A DNA stretch of 64,000 nucleotides from Kitasatospora sp. NBC_01287 (GTDB lineage Bacteria; Actinomycetota; Actinomycetes; Streptomycetales; Streptomycetaceae). A program made the translations under genes and the position numbers. Of the stretch, positions 10,257-35,267 are shown piece by piece. The DNA is taken from assembly GCF_026340565.1 (NCBI RefSeq), contig NZ_JAPEPB010000001.1:1426001-1490000 (forward strand). Reading direction: 5' to 3'. The first letter of the stretch is position 1, and each line of letters begins with the position of its first letter. The notes under the pieces were generated by a model. That model was given only the letters and a program-made list of their open reading frames with translations, made no database searches and was not told where the DNA came from.

Positions 10257-10260
<4 letters not shown>
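7723..10260 (-). CDS. FtsX-like ABC transporter permease (MacB type)
   Basis: This 845-residue membrane protein carries two FtsX-type permease units. The first has a helix at the N-terminus (AGTLIALALAAAVVAACGVLL), a large extracytoplasmic domain, then TMTAVFVVMSTVALATG and REFALLRAIGATPRQIRR. The second ends with REVALLRLAGTTRRQVRRMM and further helices. The paired (A/V)LLR-x-G/A-x-T-x-x-Q-(V/I)-R-R motifs are diagnostic of MacB/LolC-like permeases. The GTG start overlaps the stop of the ATPase gene (GTGA). Such transporters in actinobacteria often export or detoxify peptides. Its closeness to the lanthipeptide genes makes a role in export or immunity possible, but the divergent two-component system is an equally good partner. 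Confidence 0.87.
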
Positions 10261-11114
<854 letters not shown>

Positions 11115-11441
11115 GATCTCCTCCTGGGGTGGGGTGGGGTGGGGTGGGTTGCGGTACGGCCGGGGCGTCCCGACCGGTCTCCAGCCCATCACCCGGCCGG
11201 CGCGTTCTCGTCCGAGCGCGGGACGAGAAGGCGCGGGGGACCTCGGTCCACCGGCCGGCGGGACCAGGACCCTGCTCCTACCCCGGGATCCACCCGCGGG
11301 CCCGGTGACCTGCGGTGCGGCGGTGGAAGAATGGTTCGCGCACGCCGGCCGCGGCGCACCGGGGAGGGCCCGGCGCGCGGGCCGCCGCGGACACCCGCCG
11401 CGGACACGCGCAAAGGACACCCGCAGAGGAGAACCACCAGC
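11115..11441. other. Divergent regulatory region between ABC operon and two-component system
   Basis: This region of about 330 bases contains no gene. It holds the leftward ribosome binding site, the TGGGG repeat at 11125-11148 and the rightward AGAGGAGA site before the kinase gene. I could not assign a clear promoter. Confidence 0.5.
11125..11148. repeat. TGGGG pentanucleotide repeat upstream of the ABC ATPase gene
   Basis: Four perfect TGGGG units plus a partial TGGG lie directly next to the ribosome binding site of the ATPase gene. In that mRNA they read as CCCCA repeats. The tract could vary by slippage or form a G-rich structure on the + strand. Confidence 0.7.
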
Positions 11442-12719
11442 ATGGCGACGCGCCGACCGCTGCCGCCGGACCCGGCGCAGGTACCACAGTCACCACAGGC
11501 ACCGCAGGCACTCGACGGACCGGGCACCGACTCCCCCTGGACCCGCAACGACGCGCTGGTGGCCGCCGGTTCGGCCATCCTGGACCTGTTCGGCTACACG
11601 ATGACCAGCCTGGACGACAACCATCCGCTGAGCCTGCTGGGGCTGGTGCTCAGTGTGCTGGCGGCGCTGCCGCTGCTGGTCCGGCGCCGTCACCCGCTCG
11701 CGGTCCTGGTCGTGGTGCTGGCCCTCAACCTGGCGCTGAACCTGAGCGCGCCGCTGTCGCACCACTTCCCCTGCACCATCGCGGTGGCACTGTTCGCCGT
11801 CACCCAGTACCGCTCGCTCGCCCTCGCCGTGCCGGCGGGGCTGACCGCCTCCCTCGTCGCGCTGACCAGCCTCGGACCGCGCCTGAGCCTGGGCGGGGAG
11901 GACGTCCTGGGCAGCCTGCTGGCGAGCGTGCTGGTGGTCGGCACCGGCGCCGTGCTCACCCGCTGGCAGCGCGAGCTGGAGATCCGGCGCCGGCTGCTGG
12001 CGGAGCGCGCGGTGGCCGAGGAACGGCGGCGGATCGCGCGGGAGCTGCACGACATCGTCGCCCACCAGATCACCACCATGCAGCTGATGGCCGGCGGTGC
12101 GCGGGCCAACCTGGGCGGCGACATCGAGGTGGTGCGCGAGGCCCTGGTGACGCTGGAGAGCTCCGGCCGCCTGGCACTGCGCGAGATGCGCCAGCTGCTC
12201 GATGTGCTGCGGGCCGACGACGAGCGCGAGGAGGTCCCGGCCGCGCCTCAGCCCGGCACCGCCGACCTGGAACGGATCGTCGACGAGTCGCGGCTGGCCG
12301 GCCTGCCCACCGAGTTCACCGTCCACGGCACCGCGCGAGCGCTGCCGCCGACCACCGACCTGGCCGTCTTCCGGATCGTCCAGGAGTCGCTCACCAACAC
12401 CCGCAAGCACGCCGGCCCTGCCCGGGCCCGGGTCGAACTGACCTACCGGCCGCACTCGGTCACCGTGGAGGTCAGCGATGACGGCGCCGGCCGGCCGGGC
12501 CGCACCGCCGGCGGGGCGCACGGCCACGGTGGTGCCCTCACCCCGCCGGGATCGGGCGGGGAGCGCGGCGGGTACGGTCTGATCGGCATGCGGGAGCGGG
12601 CCGCGCTGAACGGCGGCAGCCTGGTGGCCGGGCCACAGGCGGAGGGCGGGTTCCGCGTCACGGCGAGCCTGCCGCTGGGCCCGGCCGAGAACGTCGAGAG
12701 GGAGGAACTGTTCGGATGA
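11442..12719 (+). CDS. NarL/DesK-type sensor histidine kinase
   Basis: This is a 425-residue membrane-bound sensor kinase. A proline-rich N-terminus is followed by about five hydrophobic helices (residues ~38-172) with little extracytoplasmic sequence. Then comes a HisKA_3 dimerisation box RRIARELHDIVAHQ with phospho-acceptor His203, and an ATPase domain with FRIVQESLTNTRKHA (N box), SDDGAGR and GYGLIGMRERA (G boxes). The ATG follows GAGGAGA. It overlaps the response-regulator gene by four bases (ATGA), so the two form a two-component system. Kinases of this type next to FtsX-like exporters often sense cell-envelope stress or peptides and control the exporter. Signal unknown. Confidence 0.92.
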   Translation: MATRRPLPPDPAQVPQSPQAPQALDGPGTDSPWTRNDALVAAGSAILDLFGYTMTSLDDNHPLSLLGLVLSVLAALPLLVRRRHPLAVLVVVLALNLALNLSAPLSHHFPCTIAVALFAVTQYRSLALAVPAGLTASLVALTSLGPRLSLGGEDVLGSLLASVLVVGTGAVLTRWQRELEIRRRLLAERAVAEERRRIARELHDIVAHQITTMQLMAGGARANLGGDIEVVREALVTLESSGRLALREMRQLLDVLRADDEREEVPAAPQPGTADLERIVDESRLAGLPTEFTVHGTARALPPTTDLAVFRIVQESLTNTRKHAGPARARVELTYRPHSVTVEVSDDGAGRPGRTAGGAHGHGGALTPPGSGGERGGYGLIGMRERAALNGGSLVAGPQAEGGFRVTASLPLGPAENVEREELFG

Positions 12720-13402
12720 CACCGACCACGGCGCCGATCAGGGTGCTGATCGCGGACGACCAGCCGCTGGTCCGGCGCGGCCTGGCCCTGATCCTGGCGC
12801 CCGCTCCGGGCGTCGAGGTGGTGGCCGAGGCCGAGCACGGCGAGCAGGCCGTCGAGCTGGCCCACCGGCACCGGCCCTCGGTGGTGGTCATGGACGTCCG
12901 GATGCCGGTCCTCGACGGCGTCCAGGCCACCGAGCGCCTCGCCCGCGAACTGCCCGACTGCCGGGTCCTGGCACTGAGCACCTTCGACATGGACGAGTAC
13001 GTGGTGGCCGCGCTGCGCGCCGGTGCCTACGGCTTCCTGCCCAAGGACGTCTCCCCGGAGGACCTGCTCGCCGCGATCCGCACCGTGCACACCGGCGAGG
13101 CCGCCGTGGCGCCCCGGCTGCTCACCCGGCTGCTCTCCACCTACGTCACCGCGTCCCACCCGCCGCGGCCGACGGCCGCGGCGCAGAGCCCGGTCGACCT
13201 GACGGCCCGCGAGGTCGAGGTGTGGCGCCTGATCGCCACCGGTCTGGACAACGCCGAGATCGCGCGGGCCATGGAGATCAGCCTCTCCACGGTCAAGAAC
13301 CACATCACCAGCATCTTCGGCAAGCTGCGGGTGCGTGACCGCGCCCAGGCGGTGATCGCCGCCTACGAGTCCGGCCTGGTCGCGGCCGGCCCCACGGGCT
13401 GA
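12716..13402 (+). CDS. NarL/FixJ-family response regulator
   Basis: This 228-residue response regulator is the partner of the kinase that overlaps it. The receiver domain shows the acidic pair in IADDQ, phospho-acceptor Asp60 in VVMDVRMP and the conserved lysine in GFLPKDV. The C-terminal LuxR-type HTH is LTAREVEVWRLIATGL followed by NAEIARAMEISLSTVKNH. It probably regulates the divergent ABC operon across the 330-base intergenic region. That target is inferred from position only. Confidence 0.93.
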   Translation: MTPTTAPIRVLIADDQPLVRRGLALILAPAPGVEVVAEAEHGEQAVELAHRHRPSVVVMDVRMPVLDGVQATERLARELPDCRVLALSTFDMDEYVVAALRAGAYGFLPKDVSPEDLLAAIRTVHTGEAAVAPRLLTRLLSTYVTASHPPRPTAAAQSPVDLTAREVEVWRLIATGLDNAEIARAMEISLSTVKNHITSIFGKLRVRDRAQAVIAAYESGLVAAGPTG

Positions 13403-17868: not shown

Positions 17869-18645
17869 TCACGCGTCGTCAAGTGCGGCCCGCTCTCGGC
17901 TGGACCGCTCCAGTACGCGCAGGACCAGCAGGGCCGCCAGCGCGAGCACCGCCGCCTTCAGCAGCTCCCAACCCAGCAGGCCCACGACCCCACCGCTGCC
18001 CGCCAGCGCGTCGCGAGCCGCCTCGATGCCCTGCGACATGGGCATCACCTCACCGATCGCGGCAAGCCAGCCGGGTAGCCGGTCGAGAGGGATGTTCACC
18101 CCGCACAGCAGCAGCATCGAGTACAGCACCACGCTGGCGGCGAAGATCGGCTCGCGGGTGCGCAGCCCGATCGCGCCGACGAGCAGGCCGCAGGCACTGC
18201 ACGACATGGCGGTGACCAGGACGGCGAGAGCGAGTCGGGGCAGCGAGCCGAGCGGGACGTGCAGCCAGCCGAGGGCCGTACCGAGGGCCAGCATGACCGA
18301 GGAGGTCAGGGCTCCCATGAGGACCGCCGGCCCGATCCGGCCGCCGAACATCACGGCCCTGTTGGCCGGGGTGGCGAGCACCGCGCTGAGCGTACCGCTC
18401 ACCCGCTCGCCCTGGACGGACATGGCCGGCGCGAACAGGCCCGCCATGGCACACGCGTTCAGCGCGTTGCCCACGACGTAGTACTGGGTCGGATAGGTAC
18501 CCAGGTAGCGGCCGAGATGGACGAACCAGATCAACTGGACCACCGGAACGCCCAGTACCGTGGGAATGAACGCGGAGGGCCGCAACCAGCGGAACAGCGC
18601 GAGGTGGGAACGCCACCCGGCGACGAAGAACAGTCGCAGCGTCAC
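17869..18645 (-). CDS. ABC-2 type transporter permease (second subunit)
   Basis: This 258-residue membrane protein has six predicted helices, among them VVLYSMLLLCGVNIPLDRL near the C-terminal third, typical of ABC-2 permeases that export drugs, lipids or polysaccharides. The GTG start overlaps the stop of the preceding permease gene (GTGA). An ATG 12 codons upstream would overlap that gene further. It is the last gene of the leftward operon and works with the next permease and the ATPase at 19469. Probable role: export of, or self-resistance to, the cluster product. Confidence 0.83.
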   Translation of the reverse strand: MTLRLFFVAGWRSHLALFRWLRPSAFIPTVLGVPVVQLIWFVHLGRYLGTYPTQYYVVGNALNACAMAGLFAPAMSVQGERVSGTLSAVLATPANRAVMFGGRIGPAVLMGALTSSVMLALGTALGWLHVPLGSLPRLALAVLVTAMSCSACGLLVGAIGLRTREPIFAASVVLYSMLLLCGVNIPLDRLPGWLAAIGEVMPMSQGIEAARDALAGSGGVVGLLGWELLKAAVLALAALLVLRVLERSSRERAALDDA

Positions 18646-19472
18646 TGCAACGCCAGCGTGCCGCTGGAGCGAGCCAGCCATTCGAACCTCTTCTGTAGTA
18701 GCAGCGTCACCGCGATGTAGACCGCCGAGAGCAGGGCGCACATGCCCACGGCCGAGCCGGCCCCCGAGGTCCCGGCCGCCGCCCCCTCCAGAGCTTTGAC
18801 ACCCCAGGTGGGCGCGAGGAGATAGGAGATGGACCGGACCGACGCGGGGAGGGTGGAGATGGGCACCAGCATTCCGCTGAGCATCCAGACCGGATACTCG
18901 AAGAAGTTGGCCAGCGACTGCGCGGTCGGGTACAGGATGAACGCGGACGCCATCAGCAGCCCGAGCATCCCCAAGGCCACCACGGTGACCCCCACGGCCC
19001 CGACGAACAGCAGTGGATCCGCGATGTGCAGCGGCATGTCGAACAGCAGCGCGCTCCACAGCAGGGTTGCCACCAGCCCGTAGACCCCCAGGGACGCGGT
19101 CGCGAGGGCGAACGGCAGCGTGATGAGGAAGGTCGATCGGGGGCTGGCGACAAGGGGCTCGAGGATCTGCGACCAGCGCAGCCGATTGATCGCGTTGCCG
19201 GAGCCGAGCAGGGTCGAGGACCACATGCCCATCAGGGCCGCGCTCAGCGCCACGTCGATGGGCGCGACGTGCCGGGTCGAGCTGCGGAACATGTAGAAGG
19301 CCAGCGACGCGAAGATCAGGGGCAGCAGCACGCACTGGAAGAGGTACAGCCGGCTGCGCATCAGCTGCCACAGCTCCAACCGCCAGGAGCGCAGGACGAA
19401 TCCGGTACCCGCCCGCAGCCGACCCGTCGCGGTCGACGCGGTCCACGCGGTCCACGAGGTCGACGCGGTCAC
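18642..19472 (-). CDS. ABC-2 type transporter permease (first subunit)
   Basis: This 276-residue membrane protein has helices at YLFQCVLLPLIFASLAFYMF, LGVYGLVATLLWSALLF, LLFVGAVGVTVVALGMLGLL and near the C-terminus, in the ABC-2 pattern. The first 25 residues are variable. It overlaps the ATPase gene upstream (ATGA) and the second permease gene downstream (GTGA). Two unequal permeases plus one ATPase probably form a heterodimeric exporter. Confidence 0.82.
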   Translation of the reverse strand: MTASTSWTAWTASTATGRLRAGTGFVLRSWRLELWQLMRSRLYLFQCVLLPLIFASLAFYMFRSSTRHVAPIDVALSAALMGMWSSTLLGSGNAINRLRWSQILEPLVASPRSTFLITLPFALATASLGVYGLVATLLWSALLFDMPLHIADPLLFVGAVGVTVVALGMLGLLMASAFILYPTAQSLANFFEYPVWMLSGMLVPISTLPASVRSISYLLAPTWGVKALEGAAAGTSGAGSAVGMCALLSAVYIAVTLLLQKRFEWLARSSGTLALQ

Positions 19473-20446
19473 CGCCCGCCTCCGGAGATCAACGCGACGT
19501 ACGCGTCCTCCAGAGTCGGCTCGCGCTTGAACACCTCGCGTATGGCCACCTCTCGCAACTCGGCCAGGACGGCCGCGGTCACGTCTGTCTCCAGTCCGCT
19601 GTGGATGTCGAGGGACTGGCCGGAGTCCAGCTCGGTCAGGCTCACCGAGCGGATGCCGGGCAGCGCCCGCAGCCGGTTCACGTGCCCGTCGTCGGCGCCG
19701 GTGACGTTCACGGTCAGCACGACCTGGCCGGCGGTCTGCTTCTTGAGGGCCTCCGGGGTGCCCTCGGCGATCTTCTTGCCGTTACGCATCACCGCGACCC
19801 GGTCGCAGAGTTCGTCGGCCTCGAACATGTAGTGCGTGGTGAGCAGCACGGTGCGGCCCTGCTGGTGCACCAGGTCGCGGACCAGGGCCCGCAGTTCCCG
19901 GGCGCCGACCGGGTCGATGCCGTTGCTCGGCTCGTCGAGGATCACCACCTTGGGGTCGTGCAGCAGGCCGCGGGCGATGTGCAGCCGCTGCTTCATGCCG
20001 CGCGAATAGGTCTCCACACGCTTCCGCTCGTTCCCCAGCAGGCCGACCATGTCGAGCAGTTCGGGCACGCGGCGCTTCTGCTCCCGGTACGGGATGCCAT
20101 ACAGGTCCGCGAAGAGCAGAAGGTTGTCCCGGGCCGACAGCCGCGCGTACAGTCCCGCGTCACCGCCGAGGATGACCCCGATCAGCCGGCGCACGGTCTG
20201 CGCTTCGCGCACGACATCGTGACCCAGGACGCTCACTTGGCCGGAGGTCGGCAGCAGCACTGTCATGAGGATCTTCGCGGTGCTGGTCTTGCCGGCCCCG
20301 TTGGGCCCGAGCAGACCCACCATCTCGCCCTGCTCGACGCGCAGCGAGAGTCCGTCCACCGCGCGCTTCACCCGCCCCTGCGGCTCCTGGAAGGTGCGTA
20401 CCAGTGCTTGGATCTCGATGGCGGATCTGGCGGTCAGGTCCTGCAT
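19469..20446 (-). CDS. ABC transporter ATPase (drug-export type)
   Basis: This 325-residue ATPase has Walker A GPNGAGKTS, signature YSRGMKQRLHIA, Walker B VVILDEPSNGID and switch H in LTTHYMFEADELC. A C-terminal ~100-residue extension ends EVFKREPTLEDAYVALISGG, which is typical of DrrA/CcmA-like exporters. The ATG at 20446 has AGAGG upstream. A longer reading from 20536 has no domain content. It lies 58 bases downstream of the condensation-domain gene, so it appears part of the biosynthetic operon. Confidence 0.9.
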   Translation of the reverse strand: MQDLTARSAIEIQALVRTFQEPQGRVKRAVDGLSLRVEQGEMVGLLGPNGAGKTSTAKILMTVLLPTSGQVSVLGHDVVREAQTVRRLIGVILGGDAGLYARLSARDNLLLFADLYGIPYREQKRRVPELLDMVGLLGNERKRVETYSRGMKQRLHIARGLLHDPKVVILDEPSNGIDPVGARELRALVRDLVHQQGRTVLLTTHYMFEADELCDRVAVMRNGKKIAEGTPEALKKQTAGQVVLTVNVTGADDGHVNRLRALPGIRSVSLTELDSGQSLDIHSGLETDVTAAVLAELREVAIREVFKREPTLEDAYVALISGGGR

Positions 20447-20504: not shown

Positions 20505-21860
20505 CTAGGAGGCCGTGCGCGCGACCGCACTCTCACATGTCGCGTACAGCGCCTGCGTGCTGACCTCTGCGTCGACGGCGAGCCGCCGCAACTCCTGGTC
20601 GTACCAGGACAGCAGTGAATGGAGCCGGTCCTCCGGCAGCACTCGCGGATCGGTCCGGATGACGACCGGCATCTCGCGGCCGCCGCGGACCCTCATGTCG
20701 AAGCGCGGGCCGACCTGACGGTTGGGGAGGGTGGCCTCGACCCTGGCGGAGGCGTGACCGGAAGCCGCGGGATACGGCGGCGCCGCCATGATGTCCTGCG
20801 CCATGAAGTTGTAGAAGTTGTCGAAGCCGAGCTCGATGCCACGCTCCGCGCGCACCAGAGCGGTGACTTCGTCGATGTCGTAGGCGCCGAAGCGGTAGGA
20901 CCGGAGCGCGGCGGCCTGGACGGACGCGGCGTACCGGCCGAAACCGTCAGGCGCCGCGCCGATGTCCAGCGGCAGCGGGGCGTACTGGTTCATCGAGCTG
21001 ACCAGATCCTGCCAGGGCAGCCGAAAGCGGTTGCTCGACTGCAGGGTGAGCACCACCCGCGCCGTCCCGCTGACCACGGCCAGAGCCACCGAGCTGAGTG
21101 CCAGCAGCACCCCGTGGGCCGGCACCCCCAACCGTTCGGCCGCGGTGGCCAGCGCCGAGCGGGCCCCCGGTGACCGCAGGACCGCCTCGATCCGTCCCGG
21201 ATCCTGATCGCCGTGATCCGGCACCGGGAACACGCCCGGATCGAGCGTGTCCAGCAGCCGCGTCCAGTGCGCGAGGGCAGCCGTGCGGCTCGACCGGTTG
21301 GCATCCGATCGCTGGAAGAGGGCCAGCTCGCGCGGCTGCACGGGGGTCTCCGTCAGCCAGCGCCGCCCTTCCGGATCGTCACCACCCATGAGTACGGTCA
21401 GTTCGCCGCTCAGACGGCGCAGCGAGAACCCGTCGGCGGCGATGTGGTCGCAGACGAGGACGACGAAACGGGGACGGCCGCCGTCGGTGACCACGGTGAA
21501 GCGGCGGCCGAAGTCCCTCTCCCGGTCGATCAGCTCGGCCGCCTGCCCGCGCCCGATGGCCATGGCAGCGGACTCATCGGCGCCGGGATCCTCGATGGTG
21601 GCGATCCGCACCCGGTCCTCCACCGGCCGCACGAACTGGATCGGGCCCCGCGGTGTCTCCGCGAAGTGGGTGCGCAGGGACTCATGCCGCTCGCACAGCG
21701 AGCGCAGCCCCGCGTACACCCGATCCAGCGGACACTCGGCCGGTACCGGGACGACGACACTCAGGTACGTCTCCGGCCAGCGATCGGTCGGCCAGCGGGC
21801 GGTGATCCGCAAGACGGACAGCTGGCCGAAGGTCAGCGGTGTACGGTCAGCCTCGGACAC
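20505..21860 (-). CDS. Stand-alone NRPS condensation-domain protein
   Basis: This 451-residue protein is a free condensation domain, which normally joins two carrier-protein-bound acyl groups by an amide or ester bond. It opens with PLTFGQLSVLRI (C1-like), has RHESLRTHF (C2 region) and VLVCDHIAADGFSLRRL at the catalytic site. The usual HHxxxDG reads DHIAADG, so the second (catalytic) His139 and Asp143-Gly144 are kept but the first His is Asp. The GTG at 21860 has GGAAGGA upstream. The frame stays open to 22097 without domain content. No carrier or adenylation domain is fused, so it must work with the free carrier proteins and the adenylation-PCP protein of the cluster. Confidence 0.85.
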   Translation of the reverse strand: MSEADRTPLTFGQLSVLRITARWPTDRWPETYLSVVVPVPAECPLDRVYAGLRSLCERHESLRTHFAETPRGPIQFVRPVEDRVRIATIEDPGADESAAMAIGRGQAAELIDRERDFGRRFTVVTDGGRPRFVVLVCDHIAADGFSLRRLSGELTVLMGGDDPEGRRWLTETPVQPRELALFQRSDANRSSRTAALAHWTRLLDTLDPGVFPVPDHGDQDPGRIEAVLRSPGARSALATAAERLGVPAHGVLLALSSVALAVVSGTARVVLTLQSSNRFRLPWQDLVSSMNQYAPLPLDIGAAPDGFGRYAASVQAAALRSYRFGAYDIDEVTALVRAERGIELGFDNFYNFMAQDIMAAPPYPAASGHASARVEATLPNRQVGPRFDMRVRGGREMPVVIRTDPRVLPEDRLHSLLSWYDQELRRLAVDAEVSTQALYATCESAVARTAS

Positions 21861-21996: not shown

Positions 21997-22806
21997 TCAG
22001 AGTCCCAGCGCCTCCCGGACCGAGGCCGGCCAGTCACCGGCCGACCGGCCGTGGCGGTGCTGGAGCGCGAGCACCAACCGGTCCAGGCCGAAAGCAAGAC
22101 AGGCGCTGTGCGCCACCGAGCCGTCCGTCAGCGTGAGTCCGAACGCCGCGCCGAAGTGGTCCTTGTGGCCGTTGGCCGAGGCCACCGACTGCGTCTGCCC
22201 GTGGCCGAGCCGAGTCACGATCTCCCACTTGAGTTCCCCGGTGCGCTGGACCGCCGCCATCAACCGCCCGGGCCGGCCGAAGAACGGGTCGTTCGCGGCG
22301 ACCACCTCGACTGCCAGGCCGAGTCCGCCGAGCCAGGTGACAGCCGATTCCAGCACCCGGTCGCGCCAGTCCATCACCGCTTCCGGGGCGCCGAACCGGA
22401 CGACCTCGTACATCCGGAAGGCGCGCAGCCGCCCGGTCTCCGCAGTCGCCTCGCCGCGATAGCAGACGGCTTCCACGCTCAGTTGCCGTTCGGTGCCGAG
22501 CACGCTGCCCGCGAGCAGGGGATACACGTGGTGGCAGGCCGCCGGGGACAGCACCAGGTCGGTCGGGCCGGCCGCACCGCCCTCGGGGGCGCCGTACACG
22601 GTTCCCAGCAACTGCGGGAACGAGGTCGGATAGTCCGCCCGTTCGGCGACCGTCCGGGCGATCACCGGGGGGGCCAGATAGTGCTCTTCACTCCCGTAGA
22701 AGGCCGCGGCGAGGCCGATCCGCAGGCCGTCCAGGATCCGCGCTTCGGCAGCCGGGGTGAGTACCACCCCGGGTGCCCGGAGAGTCGGGTCCGGTGGCAT
22801 CGTCAT
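21997..22806 (-). CDS. Amino acid:[carrier protein] ligase (SerRS-like, class II aaRS homolog)
   Basis: This 269-residue class II aminoacyl-tRNA-synthetase catalytic core lacks a tRNA-binding domain. Proteins of this family, related to archaeal-type seryl-tRNA synthetase, activate small amino acids and load them on the phosphopantetheine of a carrier protein instead of tRNA. Readable features are motif 2 (CYRGEATAETGRLRAFRMYEVVRFG, with Arg/Glu and the second Arg) and motif 3 (FGLDRLVLAL). The likely zinc ligands are Cys91, Glu134 and Cys236, a Cys-Glu-Cys pattern with family-like spacing. It overlaps the acyl-CoA-dehydrogenase-like gene by four bases, and two free carrier proteins lie just upstream, the expected acceptors. 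Substrate choices from the family are glycine, alanine or serine. This sequence does not settle which. Confidence 0.85.
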   Translation of the reverse strand: MTMPPDPTLRAPGVVLTPAAEARILDGLRIGLAAAFYGSEEHYLAPPVIARTVAERADYPTSFPQLLGTVYGAPEGGAAGPTDLVLSPAACHHVYPLLAGSVLGTERQLSVEAVCYRGEATAETGRLRAFRMYEVVRFGAPEAVMDWRDRVLESAVTWLGGLGLAVEVVAANDPFFGRPGRLMAAVQRTGELKWEIVTRLGHGQTQSVASANGHKDHFGAAFGLTLTDGSVAHSACLAFGLDRLVLALQHRHGRSAGDWPASVREALGL

Positions 22807-23954
22807 CGTTCTCCTCGGGAGAGCAGTACCGTCCGGGCGTTGGCGGCGAGCAGCCGGCCATTGCCGATCATCAGCGGGGCGGAGTAGGCATCACGCAGGA
22901 TCCGCGCCACCGAGTACGGACCGCGTTCGGCGAAGCCGGCCATGCCGCACACCTGCAATGCCAGGTGGGCCGTCTCCACGGCCCCTTCGGACACCGAGAT
23001 CTTGAGGGCGTTCAGCTGCGCGCCGAGCCCCAGCGTGGGTTCCCGCCCGGCGTCGAAGACCGGCTCCACGGCGCGCACGGCCGCGTCGAGTTGTGCGCGC
23101 ATCGCGGTCAACCTCAGATGTGCCCGGGCGAGTTCGGGTACCGCGGCGGTGGGATCGGCCGGAGCCCGCCCGCGGACGGAGCGCACCGCCCGGTGCACCG
23201 ACTCGGCGGCCAGTCCGCTCCACACGCCGGCCCAGAGCAGGTGGGAGACCGGCACCATGGTCTCGGCGGCGACGGTCCGGAACGGTACCGGCAGGATCTG
23301 GTCCCGCTGGAAGGCGGCCCGGATCCGGAACGCCGGACTGCAGGTACCCCGCATGCCGAGGACGTCCCACTCCCCCTGCTGCTCCAGTTCGACCTGGTCG
23401 CGGGTCACCAGGACGGCGACCTGGTTACCGGTGTCCGCGTCGGCCGTGCGACGGGCGGTGACCAGATAGGCGTCGGCCCCGGCCCCGTAGGAGACGGTCG
23501 TGCCGTCCTTCTCCAGGGTCTGCCGTCCGTCCGGTCCGTCCGCCAGGCTGCTGAGGCTGCTGCGCAGGTCGCCACCGACACCGCGCTCGCTGGTGACCGA
23601 GGCGATCAGCCATCGCTCGGCCACCGCCTTCCGCAGCAGCGGCGATTCTCGGTGGTGCCTTACCAGGCAGGCCAGTTGAGCCTGGTGCATGGCCCAGATC
23701 ATCGCCGAGGAGCCGCAGCTACGGGCGAGGCGCTCGGCGATCCGCACCAGCGCGGGGAGACCGAGCCCCAGTCCGCCGAACTCCCGGGGCGCGATCGCCG
23801 CCATCAGGTTGGTGTCGCGGAGCACTTGGAGTGCCTCGGTGGGTAGCCGCGCGCCGCGGTCGACATCGGCCGCGCTGGCAGCCGCCTGCTCGGCTGCCGC
23901 GGTCAGCGCGAGCTCCAGTTCCGGGGTGAACCCCCGCGGGTCGGTCTCAGTCAC
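22803..23954 (-). CDS. Acyl-CoA dehydrogenase-like flavoprotein
   Basis: This 383-residue protein has the acyl-CoA dehydrogenase fold: a helical N-domain (LRDTNLMAAIAPREFGGLGLGL), a middle beta domain (WLIASVTSERGVGGDLRSS, GEWDVLGMRGTCSPAF) and a C-terminal helical domain (LQVCGMAGFAERGPYSVARILRDA). At the place where fatty-acyl enzymes have the catalytic base in YEGT, this protein reads LMIGNGRLL, so the glutamate is missing there. Position between a carrier protein and the aaRS-like ligase suggests it oxidises an aminoacyl or hydroxyacyl group on that carrier. The GTG start overlaps the carrier-protein gene by eight bases. Confidence 0.83.
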   Translation of the reverse strand: MTETDPRGFTPELELALTAAAEQAAASAADVDRGARLPTEALQVLRDTNLMAAIAPREFGGLGLGLPALVRIAERLARSCGSSAMIWAMHQAQLACLVRHHRESPLLRKAVAERWLIASVTSERGVGGDLRSSLSSLADGPDGRQTLEKDGTTVSYGAGADAYLVTARRTADADTGNQVAVLVTRDQVELEQQGEWDVLGMRGTCSPAFRIRAAFQRDQILPVPFRTVAAETMVPVSHLLWAGVWSGLAAESVHRAVRSVRGRAPADPTAAVPELARAHLRLTAMRAQLDAAVRAVEPVFDAGREPTLGLGAQLNALKISVSEGAVETAHLALQVCGMAGFAERGPYSVARILRDAYSAPLMIGNGRLLAANARTVLLSRGER

Positions 23955-24207
23955 TGGAAACGGCCTTCTTCTCATTCAGCAGTTCGACCAGCACCGCCTC
24001 AAGACTGCGGATACTGGCAAAGGTCTCCCGGGTCAGCGCGCGCTCCGGAAGCTCCACGCCGAAGTGGTCCTCCAGCAGCATCATCATCTGCACACTCGTC
24101 ATGGAGTCCATGCCGGCGTCCCACAGGTCGGTGTCAGCCGCCACTCCTGGAACGATGTCCTGGAGTTTGGGGATGACGGTAATGACCTTCCTGATCTCCT
24201 CAGTCAT
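23947..24207 (-). CDS. Acyl/aminoacyl carrier protein (first)
   Basis: This 86-residue free carrier protein carries phosphopantetheine on Ser35 in WDAGMDSMTSVQMMMLL. It starts at an ATG with GGAGG eight bases upstream. The ~60-residue acidic four-helix core is intact. It directly precedes, and slightly overlaps, the acyl-CoA-dehydrogenase-like gene and lies close to the aaRS-like ligase, making it a candidate substrate of both. Confidence 0.9.
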   Translation of the reverse strand: MTEEIRKVITVIPKLQDIVPGVAADTDLWDAGMDSMTSVQMMMLLEDHFGVELPERALTRETFASIRSLEAVLVELLNEKKAVSSD

Positions 24208-24284
24208 CACAGCTGCCTCCCGGCCTTTCGACATCAGCTCGTCATTGGGATCAAACAGGCGCACCCGGACGAAGTCCGGTTCGA

Positions 24285-25136
24285 TCACCAGCCGTTGAGA
24301 TGCGAGACCGAGCCGAAGTCGACCTCGGGGCCGTAGGCCGCCAGCGCTTCGCCCATCCGGTCGCCGGCCGCGCGTCCCACCGGGGACGGGACGGCGAGCC
24401 GGTCGGCCAGGTCGAACGCGTGGCCGAGGTCCTTCACCATGTAGCCGAGCTTGAAGCCGGCCTCGAAGTCGCCGACCAGGACCCGGTTCGGGTAGAGGCC
24501 GGCGAGCTGCGCGTTGGCGCCGCCCCCGCCACTGGTGATGGCCTCGATCGCCAGGCGCGGGTCCACCCCGGCCTCGCGGGCCATGGCGAGCACCTCGCCG
24601 GAGGCGACCGCGGTGACGGCGACCAGGTAGTTGTTGAGCAACTTGACGGTCAGGCCCGCGCCCACCGGCCCGCAGTGCCGCAGCTTCTCCGGATCGCCGA
24701 TGGCGGTCAGTACGGGCCGGGCACGCTCCACCGCCGCCTCGGAGCCGCCGACCCAGAAGGCCAGCGCTCCGGCGCGGACCGCCGCGATGCCGCCGCCGGC
24801 CGGGGAGTCCAGGTAGGCCACACCGTGCCGCCGCGCCTCGGCGGCCAGCTCCCGGGCGACCTGCGGGGAGTGCGTCGTCATCTCCAGCAGGACGGACCCT
24901 GGTTGAGCCGTCGTCAGCAGGGACCTCACCACCGAGCGGACCTCGGCGGCATCGGGCAGGATGGTGCAGATCACCTCGGCCTGCTCGGCGGCGGCCTCGG
25001 GAGTGTCGACCACCGACCAGCCGCTCGGCAGTCGCCCGGGGGAGCGCGAGGAGACGACCACCTCGTGCCCTGCCGCCAACAGGCGTTCCACCATGGGAGC
25101 GCCCATCAGGCCGGCGCCGACGAATCCGACCCGCAT
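24285..25136 (-). CDS. NAD(P)-dependent beta-hydroxyacid dehydrogenase (3-hydroxyisobutyrate DH family)
   Basis: This 283-residue dehydrogenase has a Rossmann start (MRVGFVGAGLMGAPMVERLL), the substrate-binding segment YLDSPAGGGIAAVRAG (usually DAPVSGG) and the catalytic lysine Lys165 in GAGLTVKLLNNYL. Family members oxidise the beta-hydroxyl of small acids, and some act on free L-serine. The ATG at 25136 overlaps the stop of the second carrier-protein gene (TGATG). A GTG one codon earlier is possible. Next to carrier proteins and an aminoacyl-loading enzyme it could oxidise a carrier-bound seryl group to the aldehyde. That is inference. Confidence 0.87.
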   Translation of the reverse strand: MRVGFVGAGLMGAPMVERLLAAGHEVVVSSRSPGRLPSGWSVVDTPEAAAEQAEVICTILPDAAEVRSVVRSLLTTAQPGSVLLEMTTHSPQVARELAAEARRHGVAYLDSPAGGGIAAVRAGALAFWVGGSEAAVERARPVLTAIGDPEKLRHCGPVGAGLTVKLLNNYLVAVTAVASGEVLAMAREAGVDPRLAIEAITSGGGGANAQLAGLYPNRVLVGDFEAGFKLGYMVKDLGHAFDLADRLAVPSPVGRAAGDRMGEALAAYGPEVDFGSVSHLNGW

Positions 25137-25396
25137 CACCCACGCTCCGCGGTGATGAAGGCGTAGGCGCTTCGCAGCGACGAGATCATACTGATGTTGA
25201 GCGTGTCGATGTCGATCTCGGCACCACGTTGCTGCTCCAGGAAGTCGAGGAAGGCCAACGAGCCGAGCGAGTCCAGGACTCCGCTCTCGAACAGGTCGGT
25301 CTCGGGCTCCAGTCCGGAGCTGTCCGCGCCGATCTCCGCGAGGAACTGGACGGCGTTCCGCACGAACTCGTCCTCCGAAGGCATGATGGTCGGCAT
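25136..25396 (-). CDS. Acyl/aminoacyl carrier protein (second)
   Basis: This 86-residue carrier protein has its phosphopantetheine site Ser43 in LFESGVLDSLGSLAFLDFL. The SG(V/L)LDSLG form is common in carrier proteins that pair with amino acid:carrier-protein ligases. It differs clearly from the first carrier protein (DAGMDSMTS). It is tightly coupled to the hydrolase gene upstream (TAATG) and the dehydrogenase gene downstream (TGATG). Confidence 0.9.
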   Translation of the reverse strand: MPTIMPSEDEFVRNAVQFLAEIGADSSGLEPETDLFESGVLDSLGSLAFLDFLEQQRGAEIDIDTLNISMISSLRSAYAFITAERG

Positions 25397-26388
25397 TACT
25401 TCTCCCCTGTCGTTGCGTTCATCCGGTCGCGCAGCACCTCGTAGTGCTCACGACAGGCCCTGCGCGAGACCGGCGCCGACGCGAGCGTGTCGAACGCGTG
25501 GAAGGTCCCGGCGAAGCGGTGCAGTTCGGTCGGGACGCCGGCCTCGGCCAGGCGTCGGGCGTACTCGTCCCCTTCGTCCCGCAGCGGGTCGTACTCCGCG
25601 GTCATCACATAGGCCGGCGGAAGCCCGCGCAGGTCGGTGGCCCGGGCGGGCGCCGCGTACGGCGAGACCGGACCCCGGCGCTCCGCGGGGCCGAGGTAGT
25701 GGTCCCACATGTGGACGCAGTTGCGGGAGTCCCAGGCCGGCGTGTCGGCGAACTCCCGGACCGACCTGGTCCGGAGCCGGTCGTCCGTCACGGGGTAGAG
25801 CAGCAGTTGGAGCCCGGGCGGTTCGAGCCCGGTGTCGCGGGCCCGGAGGCAGAGGGCGGCGGTCAACGCTCCGCCCGCGCTGGAGCCCGCCACCGCGATC
25901 CGTCCGGCGTCGACGCCGATCGACGAACCCTCGGCACGGAGCCATCGGTACGCCGTGAGGCAGTCGTCCAGCCCCGCCGGGAACGGGTGCTCCGGTGCCA
26001 GCCGGTAGTCGACCGCGACCACGGTGAAACCGGTCTCGCGGCACATCTCCAGGCACCGGGGGTGCTCGAAGTCGAGATCACCGGAGATGAACGCCCCGCC
26101 GTGCAGGTACAGCACGGCCGGACCCGGCTCCGATTCCCCGACCGGTCGGTAGACACGGACCGGCACCTCGATCCCGTCATCGGAGGGCAGCAGCCGGTCC
26201 CGTACCTCGACGCCGGGATCGCTGCCGAACCAGAGCCCCGTCATCCGGGCGATGGTGATCCGGCGGGCCGCCTCCCGCCGGACCGCGAGCGGGTCGGCGT
26301 GGTCGACGCGGCGGTACAGCGCGGCCGTCCGGACCAGGTGGGGATCGATCCGCAGCGGGGCCGGCACGGGTCGCGGTTCGGTGCTCAT
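25396..26388 (-). CDS. Alpha/beta hydrolase (HSL/acetyl esterase type)
   Basis: This 330-residue hormone-sensitive-lipase-type hydrolase has the oxyanion motif YLHGGAF, nucleophile Ser170 in VAGSSAGG, the acid Asp267 in TAEYDPLRDEG and His297 in GTFHAFD. The triad is complete. The family hydrolyses short esters or amides. Here it could release a thioester or trim an ester intermediate. It is translationally coupled on both sides. Confidence 0.88.
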   Translation of the reverse strand: MSTEPRPVPAPLRIDPHLVRTAALYRRVDHADPLAVRREAARRITIARMTGLWFGSDPGVEVRDRLLPSDDGIEVPVRVYRPVGESEPGPAVLYLHGGAFISGDLDFEHPRCLEMCRETGFTVVAVDYRLAPEHPFPAGLDDCLTAYRWLRAEGSSIGVDAGRIAVAGSSAGGALTAALCLRARDTGLEPPGLQLLLYPVTDDRLRTRSVREFADTPAWDSRNCVHMWDHYLGPAERRGPVSPYAAPARATDLRGLPPAYVMTAEYDPLRDEGDEYARRLAEAGVPTELHRFAGTFHAFDTLASAPVSRRACREHYEVLRDRMNATTGEK

Positions 26389-27107
26389 CTGCTTCTCCGC
26401 TCGGACGGTTCCGGGTACCGCAGCACGAGGAGCTCGGCCCCCTCGGCTCCGGCGGTCAGGATGGCCGGCCCGTCACCGGGCGCCTGCCAGCCGATCGATT
26501 CGGGCCCGTGGTCACCCTCGACGCCCGCCACCGAGACCGCGCCGGCCGCGACGTACAGGAACTGCCCGCCCGGCCCGGCAGCCGGGACGGAGAGCTCCGC
26601 CCCGGGGCCGGCGGAGCGGCGGCCGACCCGCAGGCCGTCCCGGTCGTCGGCCAGCAGCGCCTCCCCGTCGTCCGTTCGGGCCAGGTCGATCCCCGCGTGC
26701 AGGCTGCGCCCGGCGTGGGGTGGAAGCAGGGCCCGGGACTCGGGCATGAACGAGGTGGTCAGGGTCGGCTCGGCCCGCAGGGTGAAGTAGCGCAGCGGTG
26801 GGCTGCCGCCGGCCAGCGGGCCGTAGACGGTGAAGGCGTCGGCGTAGTGCACCTCCAACGCGCCGATCGGCCGCCGTCCGAACAGTGAGCCGGTGGCGCC
26901 CAGCAGGACCTGGAACTGGTCGACGGGGTGGAAGTGCGGGCGCAGCACGTAGTCGTGCTGCTCCACCAGGTACGCCTGCGGACCGCCGCCGACCGGGGCC
27001 GCGCCGCCGAAGTAGTCGACGATCCTGCTGATCCGGCCCTCGAAGACGACTCGCCGGGACACCGCCTGCCCAGGGCTGACGAACTGGGGTTGGGCCAAGG
27101 GGTCCAC
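26385..27107 (-). CDS. Cupin-fold protein
   Basis: This 240-residue protein contains RPHFHPVDQFQVLLG, matching cupin motif 1 (HxH with a later acidic or Gln ligand). A second beta-rich half (PGGQFLYVAAGAVSVAG) suggests two cupin-like barrels. It may be a metal-dependent oxygenase, isomerase or binding protein. The sequence does not decide. The start is a GTG five bases after the aldolase stop, and its end overlaps the hydrolase gene (ATGA). Confidence 0.75.
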   Translation of the reverse strand: MDPLAQPQFVSPGQAVSRRVVFEGRISRIVDYFGGAAPVGGGPQAYLVEQHDYVLRPHFHPVDQFQVLLGATGSLFGRRPIGALEVHYADAFTVYGPLAGGSPPLRYFTLRAEPTLTTSFMPESRALLPPHAGRSLHAGIDLARTDDGEALLADDRDGLRVGRRSAGPGAELSVPAAGPGGQFLYVAAGAVSVAGVEGDHGPESIGWQAPGDGPAILTAGAEGAELLVLRYPEPSERRSR

Positions 27108-27112
27108 CTTCG

Positions 27113-27862
27113 CTATTTCCGGAGCATGTTCAGCGCGAGCTGAGCGGACTGGACGAAGAGCCCGACCTCGTTGCCGACGGCGATGAAGCGGAACCCCTCC
27201 TTGGCGTACTGGCGGGCCAGCCGGGTGCTCGGTGCGAAGATCCCGGCCGGCTTGCCGGCGGCGGCGCAGGCGGCCAGTACGGTCTGCCGGGCCTGGTCGA
27301 AGGCCGGCCCGGTCGGGTCGCCCGGTTGCCCGAGGTCCATCAGCAGGTCACCGGTGCCGACGAACAGCAGGTCCACCCCGGGCACGGCCGCGATGTCCCC
27401 GCTGTTCGCGACGGACTCCCGGCTCTCGACCTGCACGACGCACAGCACCCGCTCGTTCGCGGTCGCGAGGTACCCGGCGGTGCTGGTGAAGTAGCCACTG
27501 GCCCTGACCGGGTTGACGCCGCGGGAGCCCTGCGGCGGATAGCGGGTGCACCGCGCGGCGAGTTCGGCGTCCTCGACCCGGTCGACCTTGGGCACCATCA
27601 CCCCGTCGACCCCCAGGTCGAGGGCGGACTCGATGGCGTGCCGGTCCAGGCACGGCACCCGGACGATGGCGGTGGCGCCCGTGCCGCTCAGCGCCTGGGT
27701 CTGGTGCAGGGCATCGGCCTTGGTCATCGCCGCCGCCTCCATGTCGATGACCGCCCAGTCGACCCCGGCGCAGGCCGCCGCCTCGGTCAGCAACGCGCTC
27801 GCACTGACCAGGAAGAGGCCGTACACCGGTCCGTCGGTCATCCGCTGCCGGATGTCTGTCAT
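27113..27862 (-). CDS. HpcH/HpaI-family aldolase lacking the usual catalytic histidine
   Basis: This 249-residue class II pyruvate-type aldolase homolog normally adds a pyruvate enolate to aldehydes or cleaves such products. Seen are Arg68 in AIVRVP, metal ligands Glu146 (VQVESRES) and Asp172 (FVGTGDLLMDLG), and RGVNPVRASGY. The catalytic histidine normally present in an E-H-A-P block is replaced: this protein reads IDMEAAAM, with Ala43. Metal and substrate binding look preserved, so the chemistry may be altered. It is followed five bases later by the cupin gene. Confidence 0.85.
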   Translation of the reverse strand: MTDIRQRMTDGPVYGLFLVSASALLTEAAACAGVDWAVIDMEAAAMTKADALHQTQALSGTGATAIVRVPCLDRHAIESALDLGVDGVMVPKVDRVEDAELAARCTRYPPQGSRGVNPVRASGYFTSTAGYLATANERVLCVVQVESRESVANSGDIAAVPGVDLLFVGTGDLLMDLGQPGDPTGPAFDQARQTVLAACAAAGKPAGIFAPSTRLARQYAKEGFRFIAVGNEVGLFVQSAQLALNMLRK

Positions 27863-28000
27863 AGCTGCGCCCTCTCATCGGTCCCATGGCCGCCGCGCGT
27901 CAAGTCGCCCCGGCTGCGGGGGGGGGTGTGGCGTGAGTGGTGCTGTATCGGGAGGGTGCCGGGCCGGAAGGGTGCCGGGCCGGGAGGAGTCCAGGCCGGA

Positions 28001-28759
28001 TCAGCCGGCCTTCAGCACCTGGTAGACCTCGGCCCAGTTCTCCGCCAGCAGGTCGAGGTAGGTGGAGAAGCCCCGCTCCAGCTGCTCGATGTCCTCGACC
28101 GACGCGCAGGCCTTCGCCGCGGTCGACAGCGCGTGCACCTTGTGCTGCTTCTCGGTGGCGCCGATGTGCAGGTAGAAGAACTCGCAGTTCTCGTGGAACT
28201 CCTCGAAGCCGTACAGGCCGCGGTAGTTCCGCACGCCCTCGTAGAGGTTCACCAACTGGGGGTAGGCGTGCCACTCCTGGGCCAGCAGCGCACCGCAGAC
28301 CTCCTGCGGGAGCGAGCTGCTGAAGACCTTCTCGCTCTGCTCGATGAGGCGCAGGGTGGACGGCAGCACCGGAGCGGCCACCGTGTCGAGGTCGACGGGG
28401 CGGCCGCGCAGACGGCTGAGCAGACCCTCCAGGAACTCCTTGAGGATCACCGAATGCGCCTTGGCGGGGTTGCCGTGGCCCATCTCGTCGTAGAGGTTCT
28501 CGACGGTCTCGGCGCGGGCGGTGATGTCCGTCATGTGCAGGAACGCCAGCGCGATCCGGATGGGGGTGCGGCGCACCCGCTCGTAGAAGTTCTTGGCGAC
28601 GAGCTCCACCTGATCGGCGGTGAGCTCCTGGGAGATCCACAGGTCGTAGAAGGGGTTCTTCACGGCCGGGTGCTCGGCACAGCCGAGGGCCAGCGCCTGG
28701 ATGCGACTGTGCGCCTCCTCGTACGGGAGCTGCACGGTCTGATCCAGAATGACGGTCAC
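28001..28759 (-). CDS. Haem-oxygenase-like diiron oxidase (iron-containing redox enzyme family)
   Basis: This 252-residue all-helical protein belongs to the HDO superfamily, whose members do oxidative decarboxylation, C-C cleavage or N-oxygenation in natural product pathways. Candidate iron ligands are Glu92 and His102 (NLYDEMGHGNPAKAHS), Glu162 (LAQEWHAYPQ) and the FFYLHIGATEKQHK segment with His198, Glu203 and His206. That set is what the family uses. A ferredoxin gene lies 66 bases upstream and could feed electrons. The downstream aldolase gene is 138 bases away, with a short GC-rich repeat in between. Substrate is unknown, possibly a free or carrier-bound amino acid. Confidence 0.82.
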   Translation of the reverse strand: MTVILDQTVQLPYEEAHSRIQALALGCAEHPAVKNPFYDLWISQELTADQVELVAKNFYERVRRTPIRIALAFLHMTDITARAETVENLYDEMGHGNPAKAHSVILKEFLEGLLSRLRGRPVDLDTVAAPVLPSTLRLIEQSEKVFSSSLPQEVCGALLAQEWHAYPQLVNLYEGVRNYRGLYGFEEFHENCEFFYLHIGATEKQHKVHALSTAAKACASVEDIEQLERGFSTYLDLLAENWAEVYQVLKAG

Positions 28760-28825
28760 GGTGTCTCCAGCTGGGTTGCTCGGTGGTCGGGTGGGAGCCC
28801 GGGGTTGGGCGCGGGTGGGGTGTCG

Positions 28826-29059
28826 TCAGTCGACGAGGTGGATGCAGGCCGCCGGGCAGGCCATGGCGGTGTCCCTGGCCAGGGTCCGGAGCTGTTCGGG
28901 GACGTCCACCTGGTCGGCCGCGCCGCCCGGCCCGTGGAGGATCTCGCCGTCCTGCCTGACGTATGCCAGGAAGTCCTCGCCGATGGCGAACAGCTCCGGC
29001 GCCTCCTCCTCGCACAGGCCGCTGTTCTGGCATTTCGACTGGTCGATCCACATCTTCAC
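28826..29059 (-). CDS. Single-cluster ferredoxin
   Basis: This 77-residue ferredoxin has Cys10-x5-Cys16 and Cys68-Pro, the pattern of [3Fe-4S] ferredoxins that serve actinobacterial P450s. The position between the first two cysteines is Ser13, and an extra Cys72 is present. The GTG at 29059 follows AAAGGA, and an ATG two codons later is possible. It is likely the electron donor for the P450 at 39383, the diiron oxidase next door, or both. Confidence 0.88.
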   Translation of the reverse strand: MKMWIDQSKCQNSGLCEEEAPELFAIGEDFLAYVRQDGEILHGPGGAADQVDVPEQLRTLARDTAMACPAACIHLVD

Positions 29060-29189
29060 TGGGTTGTCCTTTCTCGTCGAGGGCGCTGCCTCGGTGGGGA
29101 GTTGCGGTCGGCCCGGGGCTACGGCCAGGCGAGGCGGCGGTCCCGGTCGACGGTGAAGGTCGACGGTGAAGGTCGACGGTGCCGGTCGG

Positions 29190-30515
29190 CTACGGGTGGC
29201 CGGCGATGACCGGCTGGTCGACGGCGGCCGGCTGGTCGACGCCGGCGACCGGCTGGTCGACTCGGATGACCGCGCCGGCCCGGTAGGTCTCCTCGACGAC
29301 GATGCGAATCCACTCCGCGTAGCGGATGGTCTCTCGCAGCCCGTCCGCATCGAAGGTGTCGGCCTCGTCGTGGCTCATCCGCACCACCCGGAAGTCGCCC
29401 ACCATGGGCGTCAACTCCTGGTCGGTGCCGTCGATCCGATAGCGCAGCCCGAACGAGCCGCGGCCGCCGCTGGAGCAGCCGATCGCCTGATGCCCCCGGT
29501 AGTGGGCGTCCTCGTTGCGGAAGATCATGTGTCCGCCGTGCTTCTCGACGAACTGGCCCTGCATACAGCCGGGCCCGTAGAGGCTACGGATGGCACCGCG
29601 CTTGAGCTTGAGCATCCGGGCCTTGATGGTGCGGCCCAGCTGCTCGGCCGACTCGTGGCCCAACCGCTCGGCGTAGTCACCGAGTTCGAGGCCGTCCCGG
29701 AGCTGGGTCTCGGTGAAGAAGGCCTGGCTGGTGGTCATCTCCGATGGGCGATCGAGCAGATCACCCATCGGGCAGGTCACCGTGACGTGGTCGGCCCGCA
29801 GCGCCGGGTCGACCAGGGCTGCCCGCATGATGGCACGGACCACCGAGGCGCTGTCGCCCTCCTCGGCGATGGCCTGCCGGGTCACCGAGGAGAGTCGCTG
29901 CTCCGCACCCGCAGCGGCCGGCCCGTCGAAGAGCGCGGCGAGCTCCTGCTCCACCGCGTCGGCGAGCCTGCCCGGATCGAGCTCCGCGCGGGGGATCACG
30001 CCCTCGGTTCGGTACCAGGCGCGGCCGTCGATGACCGAGTAGAGCTCATGGGTCCCCTGCACCAGCCCGCGCATCCGGGCGACCTGGTGCGCCAGGTCGA
30101 GCAGCCCCTCAGGACTTCGCCCCGCCGGGCCGAGGACACCTTCGTACAGTGCGTACCGCTCCTGCAGCACGGTCCTCAGGGCAGCCGAACTCGCGTGCTC
30201 CACAAGCTCGTCGAGGCCGACCGCCGAGGCATTGAGAGCGAACAGGGTGAGCACGAGGTCGGATTCCTCGTCGTCCCACGCCGCCGGACCGCGCGACCGG
30301 ATCGACTCCAGAGCCGACCGCAGGTCCGCCCTGACCCGGTACTCGCCTTTGTAGAGCAGCCAGTGGTGGCGACTGTAGACCAGCGGACGGGCGCAGGCGT
30401 CGAGAATTCCGGCCACGCATTGCGGGTCCGCTGCGGCCGCGACGGCGGCACGCAACTCGGTACCCGCATCGATGCCGGCGAAGTGTGATTCCGACTTGGA
30501 CACAAGCGGCAACAC
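29190..30515 (-). CDS. Unrecognised 441-residue protein, first gene of the leftward operon
   Basis: I do not recognise this family. The protein is soluble with no signal or membrane helix. The N-terminal half is helical (AACADPQ-like and FALNASAVGLDELVEHASSA segments). The C-terminal half holds conserved-looking blocks: CMQGQFVEKHGGHMIFRNED, YRGHQAIGCSSGGRGSFGLR and VVRMSHDEADTFDADGLRET. His-rich and acidic residues in these blocks could bind metal. The last ~20 residues repeat VDQPVAG/VDQPAA/VDQPVI. The start is chosen at a GTG just after AAGGGGGGGG. A GTG four codons later is possible, and the frame is open to 30794 without protein-like content. Its codon use is that of a real gene. It leads the operon and so may be central to the pathway. 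Confidence 0.7.
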   Translation of the reverse strand: MLPLVSKSESHFAGIDAGTELRAAVAAAADPQCVAGILDACARPLVYSRHHWLLYKGEYRVRADLRSALESIRSRGPAAWDDEESDLVLTLFALNASAVGLDELVEHASSAALRTVLQERYALYEGVLGPAGRSPEGLLDLAHQVARMRGLVQGTHELYSVIDGRAWYRTEGVIPRAELDPGRLADAVEQELAALFDGPAAAGAEQRLSSVTRQAIAEEGDSASVVRAIMRAALVDPALRADHVTVTCPMGDLLDRPSEMTTSQAFFTETQLRDGLELGDYAERLGHESAEQLGRTIKARMLKLKRGAIRSLYGPGCMQGQFVEKHGGHMIFRNEDAHYRGHQAIGCSSGGRGSFGLRYRIDGTDQELTPMVGDFRVVRMSHDEADTFDADGLRETIRYAEWIRIVVEETYRAGAVIRVDQPVAGVDQPAAVDQPVIAGHP

Positions 30516-34352: not shown

Positions 34353-35267
34353 ATGCGGCCTGGCATCCATCTCTCCGCGATCGCTTATGAGTTGGGCGAT
34401 CCGGTGGCCATCGGGACCCTGGACGACCCGGAGGTCGCCGAGCGGCTCCACGCGCTCGGCTCCGACGGGTTCCGGCGCTGCCGGGTGGCCGGGGCCTCGG
34501 CGGCGGCGCTCGGAGCGGCGAGCGCCCGCCGGACACTTGAGCGGTGCGGCGGCCCGGAGCCGGCCGCCGTGGTCTTCTCCACCGAGTCGACCCGGCTGGT
34601 CTCGGCCACCCAGAACACCTGGGAGCTGCTGCGAGCCGTCCCGCTGCCGCGTACCTCGACGCTCACGGTCGGCGGCAACGGCTGCGGCAACCTCGCGCCG
34701 GCCCTCCGGGCCGCCCGTGACCTGGTGCTCGCGGAGGACGCCGACAGCGTACTGCTCACCCTCGCCGATCGGTTCACCCTCGGCACCCGGTACCAGCCGG
34801 TCGGCAATACCGTGATGAGCGACAGCGCCGTCTCCTGCCTGATCACCCCGGCCCCGCTCGGAGCCGGCTTCCAGCTCCTGGCAATGGCCACCGCCGTCAA
34901 TGCCGACCTGCTGCCGGAGACCAGGAAGCTCCTGGGTGCCCGCACCGTCATGCGGGCGATCGGTCGCGCCCTGGACGAGATCAACTCCCGTGTCCAGCAG
35001 CCGGAGCGGGGCTTCGACTGGTTCGTCACCGGCAACTACGACCGCTCCACGCGGCGGTTCCTCGCCTCCGCCGTCCAGATGGACGACTCCAGGGCGCAGG
35101 CGCCGAACATCGCGGAGTACGGCCACTGCTACGCCGCGGATCAGCTCATCACGCTCGCGACCCTGGAGCGGTCCGGCGCCCTGCGCCACGGGCAGCGGCT
35201 GCTGCTGCTCGCCACCAGCGCCCGGGCATGGTCACTGATCGCCCTCGAATACAGTGAGTTGGGGTAA
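34353..35267 (+). CDS. KAS III-like thiolase-fold condensing enzyme
   Basis: This 304-residue protein resembles 3-oxoacyl-[ACP] synthase III. The nucleophile is Cys111 in VGGNGCGNLAPALRAA. The rest of the triad is unusual: the place of the first His reads TGNYDRS (Asn228), while the second conserved site reads NIAEYGHCYAADQ with His258 where FabH has Asn. Altered triads are known in KAS III-like enzymes that make esters or amides rather than decarboxylative C-C bonds. It lies between the GNAT gene and the NRPS gene and could condense or transfer an acyl unit. Confidence 0.82.
   Translation: MRPGIHLSAIAYELGDPVAIGTLDDPEVAERLHALGSDGFRRCRVAGASAAALGAASARRTLERCGGPEPAAVVFSTESTRLVSATQNTWELLRAVPLPRTSTLTVGGNGCGNLAPALRAARDLVLAEDADSVLLTLADRFTLGTRYQPVGNTVMSDSAVSCLITPAPLGAGFQLLAMATAVNADLLPETRKLLGARTVMRAIGRALDEINSRVQQPERGFDWFVTGNYDRSTRRFLASAVQMDDSRAQAPNIAEYGHCYAADQLITLATLERSGALRHGQRLLLLATSARAWSLIALEYSELG

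Follow-up and report, generated by a model that had tools for sequence, protein, structure and literature searches.

Five intact open reading frames occupy positions 21997-25396 of the window, the whole stretch of 64,000 nucleotides from Kitasatospora sp. NBC_01287 that was analysed (contig NZ_JAPEPB010000001.1, 1,426,001 to 1,490,000). All five lie on the minus strand and are transcribed in the order ACP1, HIBADH, ACP2, ACAD, ligase, where ACP denotes an acyl carrier protein, HIBADH an enzyme of 3-hydroxyisobutyrate dehydrogenase type and ACAD a flavoenzyme of the acyl-CoA dehydrogenase fold. Matches were obtained to each of the families named in the initial annotation. That annotation had joined the five genes into a single module; comparison across genomes divides them into two units, one of which, ACP2-ACAD-ligase, is a recurring cassette. 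The five genes, by coordinate, are:

21997-22806, minus strand: amino acid:[carrier protein] ligase-like protein of 269 residues, a type-2 seryl-tRNA synthetase (SerRS) catalytic core without the tRNA-binding domain
22803-23975, minus strand: ACAD-fold flavoenzyme of 390 residues without the canonical catalytic carboxylate (Pfam ACAD N- and C-terminal domains)
23947-24210, minus strand: ACP2, putative aminoacyl carrier protein (PP-binding; attachment motif DSM)
24285-25139, minus strand: HIBADH-type beta-hydroxyacid dehydrogenase (NAD_binding_2 and NAD_binding_11)
25136-25396, minus strand: ACP1, resembling peptidyl carrier proteins (PCP), PigG and D-alanyl carriers (PP-binding; attachment motif DSL)

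Overlapping start and stop codons join an upstream alpha/beta hydrolase to ACP1 and HIBADH and, separately, ACP2 to ACAD and ligase; a gap of 75 bases separates HIBADH from ACP2. Ligase loci were gathered by searching 391 genomes from the order and 394 from the class, together with one scan of a collection. Near relatives and three short contigs are among the 44 loci examined, so that counts from these loci are of non-independent events. ACAD was found within 3 kb of the ligase in 19/44 loci, usually in the order ACP-ACAD-ligase, and an ACP2-like gene was detectable in 18. HIBADH was found within 8 kb of the ligase in none of the 44. Mirror-tree comparison yielded a distance correlation of r = 0.89 for ligase and ACAD over the 19 loci and 0.76 for ligase and ACP2; such correlations retain shared species history and were counted as support only. 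The trio of carrier, flavoenzyme and ligase recurs in several actinobacterial families and in one metagenome-assembled genome of the Comamonadaceae.

A search of 383 genomes for HIBADH returned only two close relatives (77% and 68% identical, loci L082 and L083). Both belong to clusters orthologous to the core of the window cluster, with identities of 35-77% for GNATs, AMP-ligase, ACP1, hydrolase, diiron protein, ferredoxin and others. The ACP2-ACAD-ligase cassette was absent within about 20-30 kb in both. At two loci where the cassette is present (L033 and L034), ACP1 adjoins KASIII and AMP-ligase genes. The cassette genes are co-inherited, and HIBADH and ACP1 have a separate ancestry with the core. 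The simplest history is that a core cluster with HIBADH and ACP1 acquired a ligase cassette. Neither the ligase loci nor the two HIBADH clusters bear out the earlier proposal that two dehydrogenases act in sequence on a seryl-ACP.

The ligase matched the structure of Bradyrhizobium Bll0957 (3MEY, 1.8e-46, aligned to residues 79-332) and, more distantly, type-2 SerRS (3W3S, 1.6e-9, aligned to 312-508). It scored 225.9 bits (5.6e-67) against the NCBIfam aa-[ACP] ligase model NF005479, below the equivalog cut-off of 357, and is therefore named ligase-like; the ligase of locus L110 exceeds this cut-off at 400 bits. Identity to its best relatives is 54-59%. The zinc-ligand equivalents C91, E119 and C236 are kept, as are the arginines of motif 2 (R117) and motif 3 (R243). 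Reading the amino acid off the pocket was abandoned: the SxN motif is S-F-N in SerRS and Bll0957 and S-A-N in the window protein. The closest characterised relative, the Bradyrhizobium enzyme, reportedly uses glycine, and specificity within the family is said to have changed and relaxed, so SerRS ancestry does not point to serine, the substrate first suggested. Serine, glycine and alanine are listed for the family in a review, which still states the role of aminoacyl carrier proteins as unknown (PMC9437257). Two further ligase-like genes were seen in the same 9.5-Mb genome, L042 (G000:C1:783730, 50% identical), which a condensation-like gene adjoins, and L049 (G000:C2:316181, 35%).

The two carriers differ in partner type. 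The best PDB matches of ACP2 were 4H2W_C (1.7e-11), 2JQ4 (Atu2571, 1.9e-11) and 4H2S_C (6e-5); 4H2W_C and 4H2S_C come from crystals of the Bradyrhizobium ligase together with its aminoacyl carrier proteins. On these matches a cognate aminoacyl carrier appears to be encoded near the ligase, and ACP2 is likely its partner. The best carrier-protein matches of ACP1 were 2MY5, 7R49 and 5JDX, of peptidyl, PigG and D-alanyl types (the nominal top match was a designed repeat protein), and its likely partner is the AMP-ligase. Pairing of ACP1 with the ligase was rejected on homology and gene context, since ACP2 matches aminoacyl carriers and ACP1 lies beside KASIII and AMP-ligase at L033 and L034. The ligase, derived from an aminoacyl-tRNA synthetase, thus probably loads an amino acid onto ACP2. 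The idea that it replaces an adenylation domain is plausible with this carrier of its own, and so is oxidation on the carrier by ACAD; the part given to HIBADH found no support.

The predicted structure of ACAD is confident (pLDDT 89.5) and has the ACAD fold, with a VIA-align Z of 42 to isobutyryl-CoA dehydrogenase. In an alignment of 15 family members none has an acidic residue at either the MCAD-type or the IVD-type base position. LMIGN and variants stand where YEGT would be expected, the helix base position is free of acid in either plausible register, and His245, near the base position, is invariant. Loss of the dehydrogenase base argues against a standard acyl-CoA dehydrogenase role, and the label 'acyl-CoA dehydrogenase' for a protein without it is a likely misannotation, corrected here. 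Single-sequence search with phmmer gave nitrososynthase and KijD3 as the best PDB matches of the window protein, a point in favour of N-oxidation. At another locus, L084, an ACAD 53% identical to that of the window adjoins SbnA (358 bits, cut-off 350), SbnB (409 bits, cut-off 327) and an adenylation domain. For alanosine biosynthesis, the proposed hydroxylase of carrier-bound diaminopropionate is the ACAD-like AlnG (PMC7347517, PMC11705231). N-oxidation by the ACAD-fold enzyme is favoured, with modest confidence, because the diaminopropionate (Dap)-type neighbourhood at L084 resembles that of alanosine with AlnG. The L084 genes (L084:9160-14279) form an ACP-ACAD-SbnA-(SbnB + A domain) cassette in their own right, possibly for an alanosine-like or new N-hydroxy-diaminopropionate unit.

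HIBADH keeps the catalytic lysine. In its substrate loop, D-x-P-V-S-G-G, the serine is glycine or alanine in all three orthologues. This serine contacts the substrate carboxylate in known members of the family, and its loss suggests that the substrate is probably something other than an ordinary free beta-hydroxyacid; an acyl group bound to ACP1 is possible. Gene neighbourhoods place HIBADH in the core cluster and outside the ligase cassette.

The surrounding cluster spans 17869-40642. The extent first assigned to the operon was cut short, as the operon continues past the ligase with a stand-alone condensation-domain protein and the three genes of an ABC exporter. The other features of the cluster are:

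17869-20446, minus strand: ABC-2 exporter, two permeases and an ATPase (ATPase 69% identical to one adjoining the L033 cassette)
20505-21860, minus strand: stand-alone condensation-domain protein (PF00668, 2.3e-11; active-site motif DHIAADG)
25396-26388, minus strand: alpha/beta hydrolase of hormone-sensitive-lipase type, part of the core (PF07859, 3.8e-71; 72% and 64% identical in L082 and L083)
26385-30416, minus strand: core genes for an unmatched protein (26385-27107), HpcH/HpaI aldolase, haem-oxygenase-like diiron protein, ferredoxin and an unmatched protein (29190-30416), kept in L082 and L083
31113-35267, plus strand: core genes for GNAT, AMP-ligase, glyoxalase-like protein, GNAT and KASIII-like protein, all kept in L082 and all but KASIII in L083
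35270-38313, plus strand: MbtH-A-PCP protein and thioester-reductase-type SDR, held in common with genome G017 only

A GcvT-like protein, a P450 and proteins without family match complete the cluster. No polyketide synthase (PKS) ketosynthase (KS) or acyltransferase (AT) domain was found among the cluster proteins scanned. The condensation protein is likely to perform an acyl transfer step; a condensation-like gene also adjoins the ligase at L040-L042, L049 and L104. Other cassettes are followed by a thioester reductase and have a BtrH-like protein at their flank. DUF1839 comes after the cassette in several actinobacteria, often with AcpS before the cassette and a mannosidase Ig-fold gene after it. 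The order ACP-ACAD-ligase-DUF1839 is a conserved operon at L103, L108, L110 and L114-L116, in part with AcpS, a mannosidase-Ig-domain protein and a hydrolase. DUF1839 has been assigned to the papain-like enzymes, and a cell-wall role was suggested (PMC10318531).

Several further observations were made on the cluster and the window. The core of 12-13 genes is common to three genomes (the window cluster, L082 and L083). The unmatched protein at 29190-30416 (about 408 residues) has no Pfam or NCBIfam match, is 63-72% identical in the two related clusters and always lies beside the ferredoxin and the haem-oxygenase-like diiron protein; its structure model has a pLDDT of 39. The KASIII-like protein (34353-35267) keeps its cysteine (GNGCG); by eye, the usual histidine and asparagine seem absent, and it may be an acyltransferase. 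The GcvT-like protein (aminomethyltransferase, 38310-39386), which follows the A-PCP and reductase genes, is an unusual tailoring candidate. Outside the cluster, a RamC-like class III lanthionine synthetase gene (4590-7247) adjoins FtsX-type permease, ABC and two-component-like genes (7723-13402). We know of no product for the core cluster.

From these data we propose that two biochemical lines meet in one cluster. In the first, the ligase would adenylate a small amino acid and pass it to the phosphopantetheine of ACP2, the base-less ACAD would oxidise the amino acid on this carrier, with nitrogen as the most likely site (giving a hydroxylamine or oxime), and the condensation protein would transfer the oxidised amino acid to an acceptor; we infer both the loading by the window ligase and this transfer. 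In the second, ACP1, HIBADH, AMP-ligase, KASIII and the other core genes would handle a separate acyl unit, and HIBADH would act there and not on ACP2. We consider this two-line scheme, by a small measure, probable. A broader version, in which the combination of synthetase-derived ligase, carrier and base-less ACAD is a general cassette for N-oxidation of carrier-bound proteinogenic amino acids, with the window as its natural-product version, is offered tentatively.

Several points weigh against the scheme. Just two HIBADH clusters were found. The 44 ligase loci are non-independent, and the 3 kb around the ligase yielded no ACAD in 25 of these loci. HIBADH is placed between the two carriers in the window, which leaves room for an intermediate shared by both units. 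The activity of AlnG is itself hypothesised. No flavin reductase gene was recognised in the window, and the Dap synthases SbnA and SbnB were not detected among the window cluster proteins scanned; the same genome has an SbnB homolog at a distance of about 860 kb. For the flavoenzyme, the family profile ranks dehydrogenases first, with no preference for N-oxygenases, and structure comparison is split, Foldseek placing the DszC and TdsC monooxygenases at the top and VIA-align the dehydrogenases (Z 42 vs 39). Neither profile nor fold separates N-oxygenase from dehydrogenase here. The profile and VIA-align rankings favour a rival in which ACAD works as a dehydrogenase or oxidase through a non-canonical base, with His245 as one candidate, and turns the carrier-bound amino acid into an imine or dehydroamino acid. 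The VIA-align list also contains ColB1 (7XP7), titled as assembly-line-tethered cysteine dehydrogenation, and 7P98, a dehydrogenase with T at the usual Glu, matches as well. Against desaturation stand the missing acid at both known base positions in all 15 family members aligned and the oxygenases that head the phmmer and Foldseek results, and we regard it as rather unlikely, though the most probable of the three rivals.

A cassette that mainly transfers an aminoacyl group through ligase, ACP2 and condensation protein, with ACAD acting later on the transferred product, would fit the pairs of ligase and condensation-like genes without a detected ACAD in this genome and its relatives (L040-L042, L104) and the acyltransferase-type genes, DUF1839 or BtrH-like, that flank other cassettes. 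ACAD is nevertheless encoded between the carrier and the ligase and goes with the ligase even in distantly related taxa, which makes this arrangement improbable. Least probable of all, and by our estimate very much so, is the route of the initial annotation, which leads from serine loaded by the ligase through an aldehyde formed on the carrier by HIBADH to aminomalonyl-ACP formed by ACAD. It draws on the adjacency of all the named enzyme types in one operon and on the existence of HIBADH-family enzymes that act on serine; yet HIBADH and the cassette do not occur together elsewhere, and HIBADH overlaps ACP1, not ACP2. With an ACAD that has no acidic base at either position and no PKS KS or AT domain found in the cluster, formation of an aminomalonyl unit is unlikely.

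The window thus holds a cluster-borne version of the ACP-ACAD-ligase cassette and, with it, a variant of the amino acid:[carrier protein] ligase system, which is known but still little understood. No description of this gene combination was found in the open-access literature. Set in a cluster that also encodes a condensation protein and an exporter, this version should yield a secreted small molecule, and the chemistry of this cluster could therefore expose that of the whole operon family. If the general N-oxidation cassette is real, the window product would give this wide operon family its first defined function.

Among known systems, the zwittermicin-type aminomalonyl-ACP route likewise combines carrier proteins, a dehydrogenase and an ACAD homolog; the window differs in that HIBADH and the cassette are not linked in other genomes, its ACAD has lost the base and no PKS was found in the cluster. 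Alanosine (proposed N-hydroxylase AlnG, with diaminopropionate on AlnI) shares an ACAD-like flavoprotein and a carrier-bound amino acid, whereas the window cluster is without Dap synthases and has a ligase in place of the adenylation domain. The Bradyrhizobium Bll0957 and Agrobacterium Atu2571 system shares the ligase fold, the zinc and motif residues and a dedicated aminoacyl carrier that is the nearest solved relative of ACP2. The window departs from it in its setting in a biosynthetic cluster, the condensation protein that follows, a score of 226 against 357 bits and the S-A-N pocket. The actinobacterial ACP-ACAD-ligase-DUF1839 operon has ACP, ACAD and ligase in identical order; where it has DUF1839 and the glycosidase-like gene, the window has a condensation protein and an exporter.

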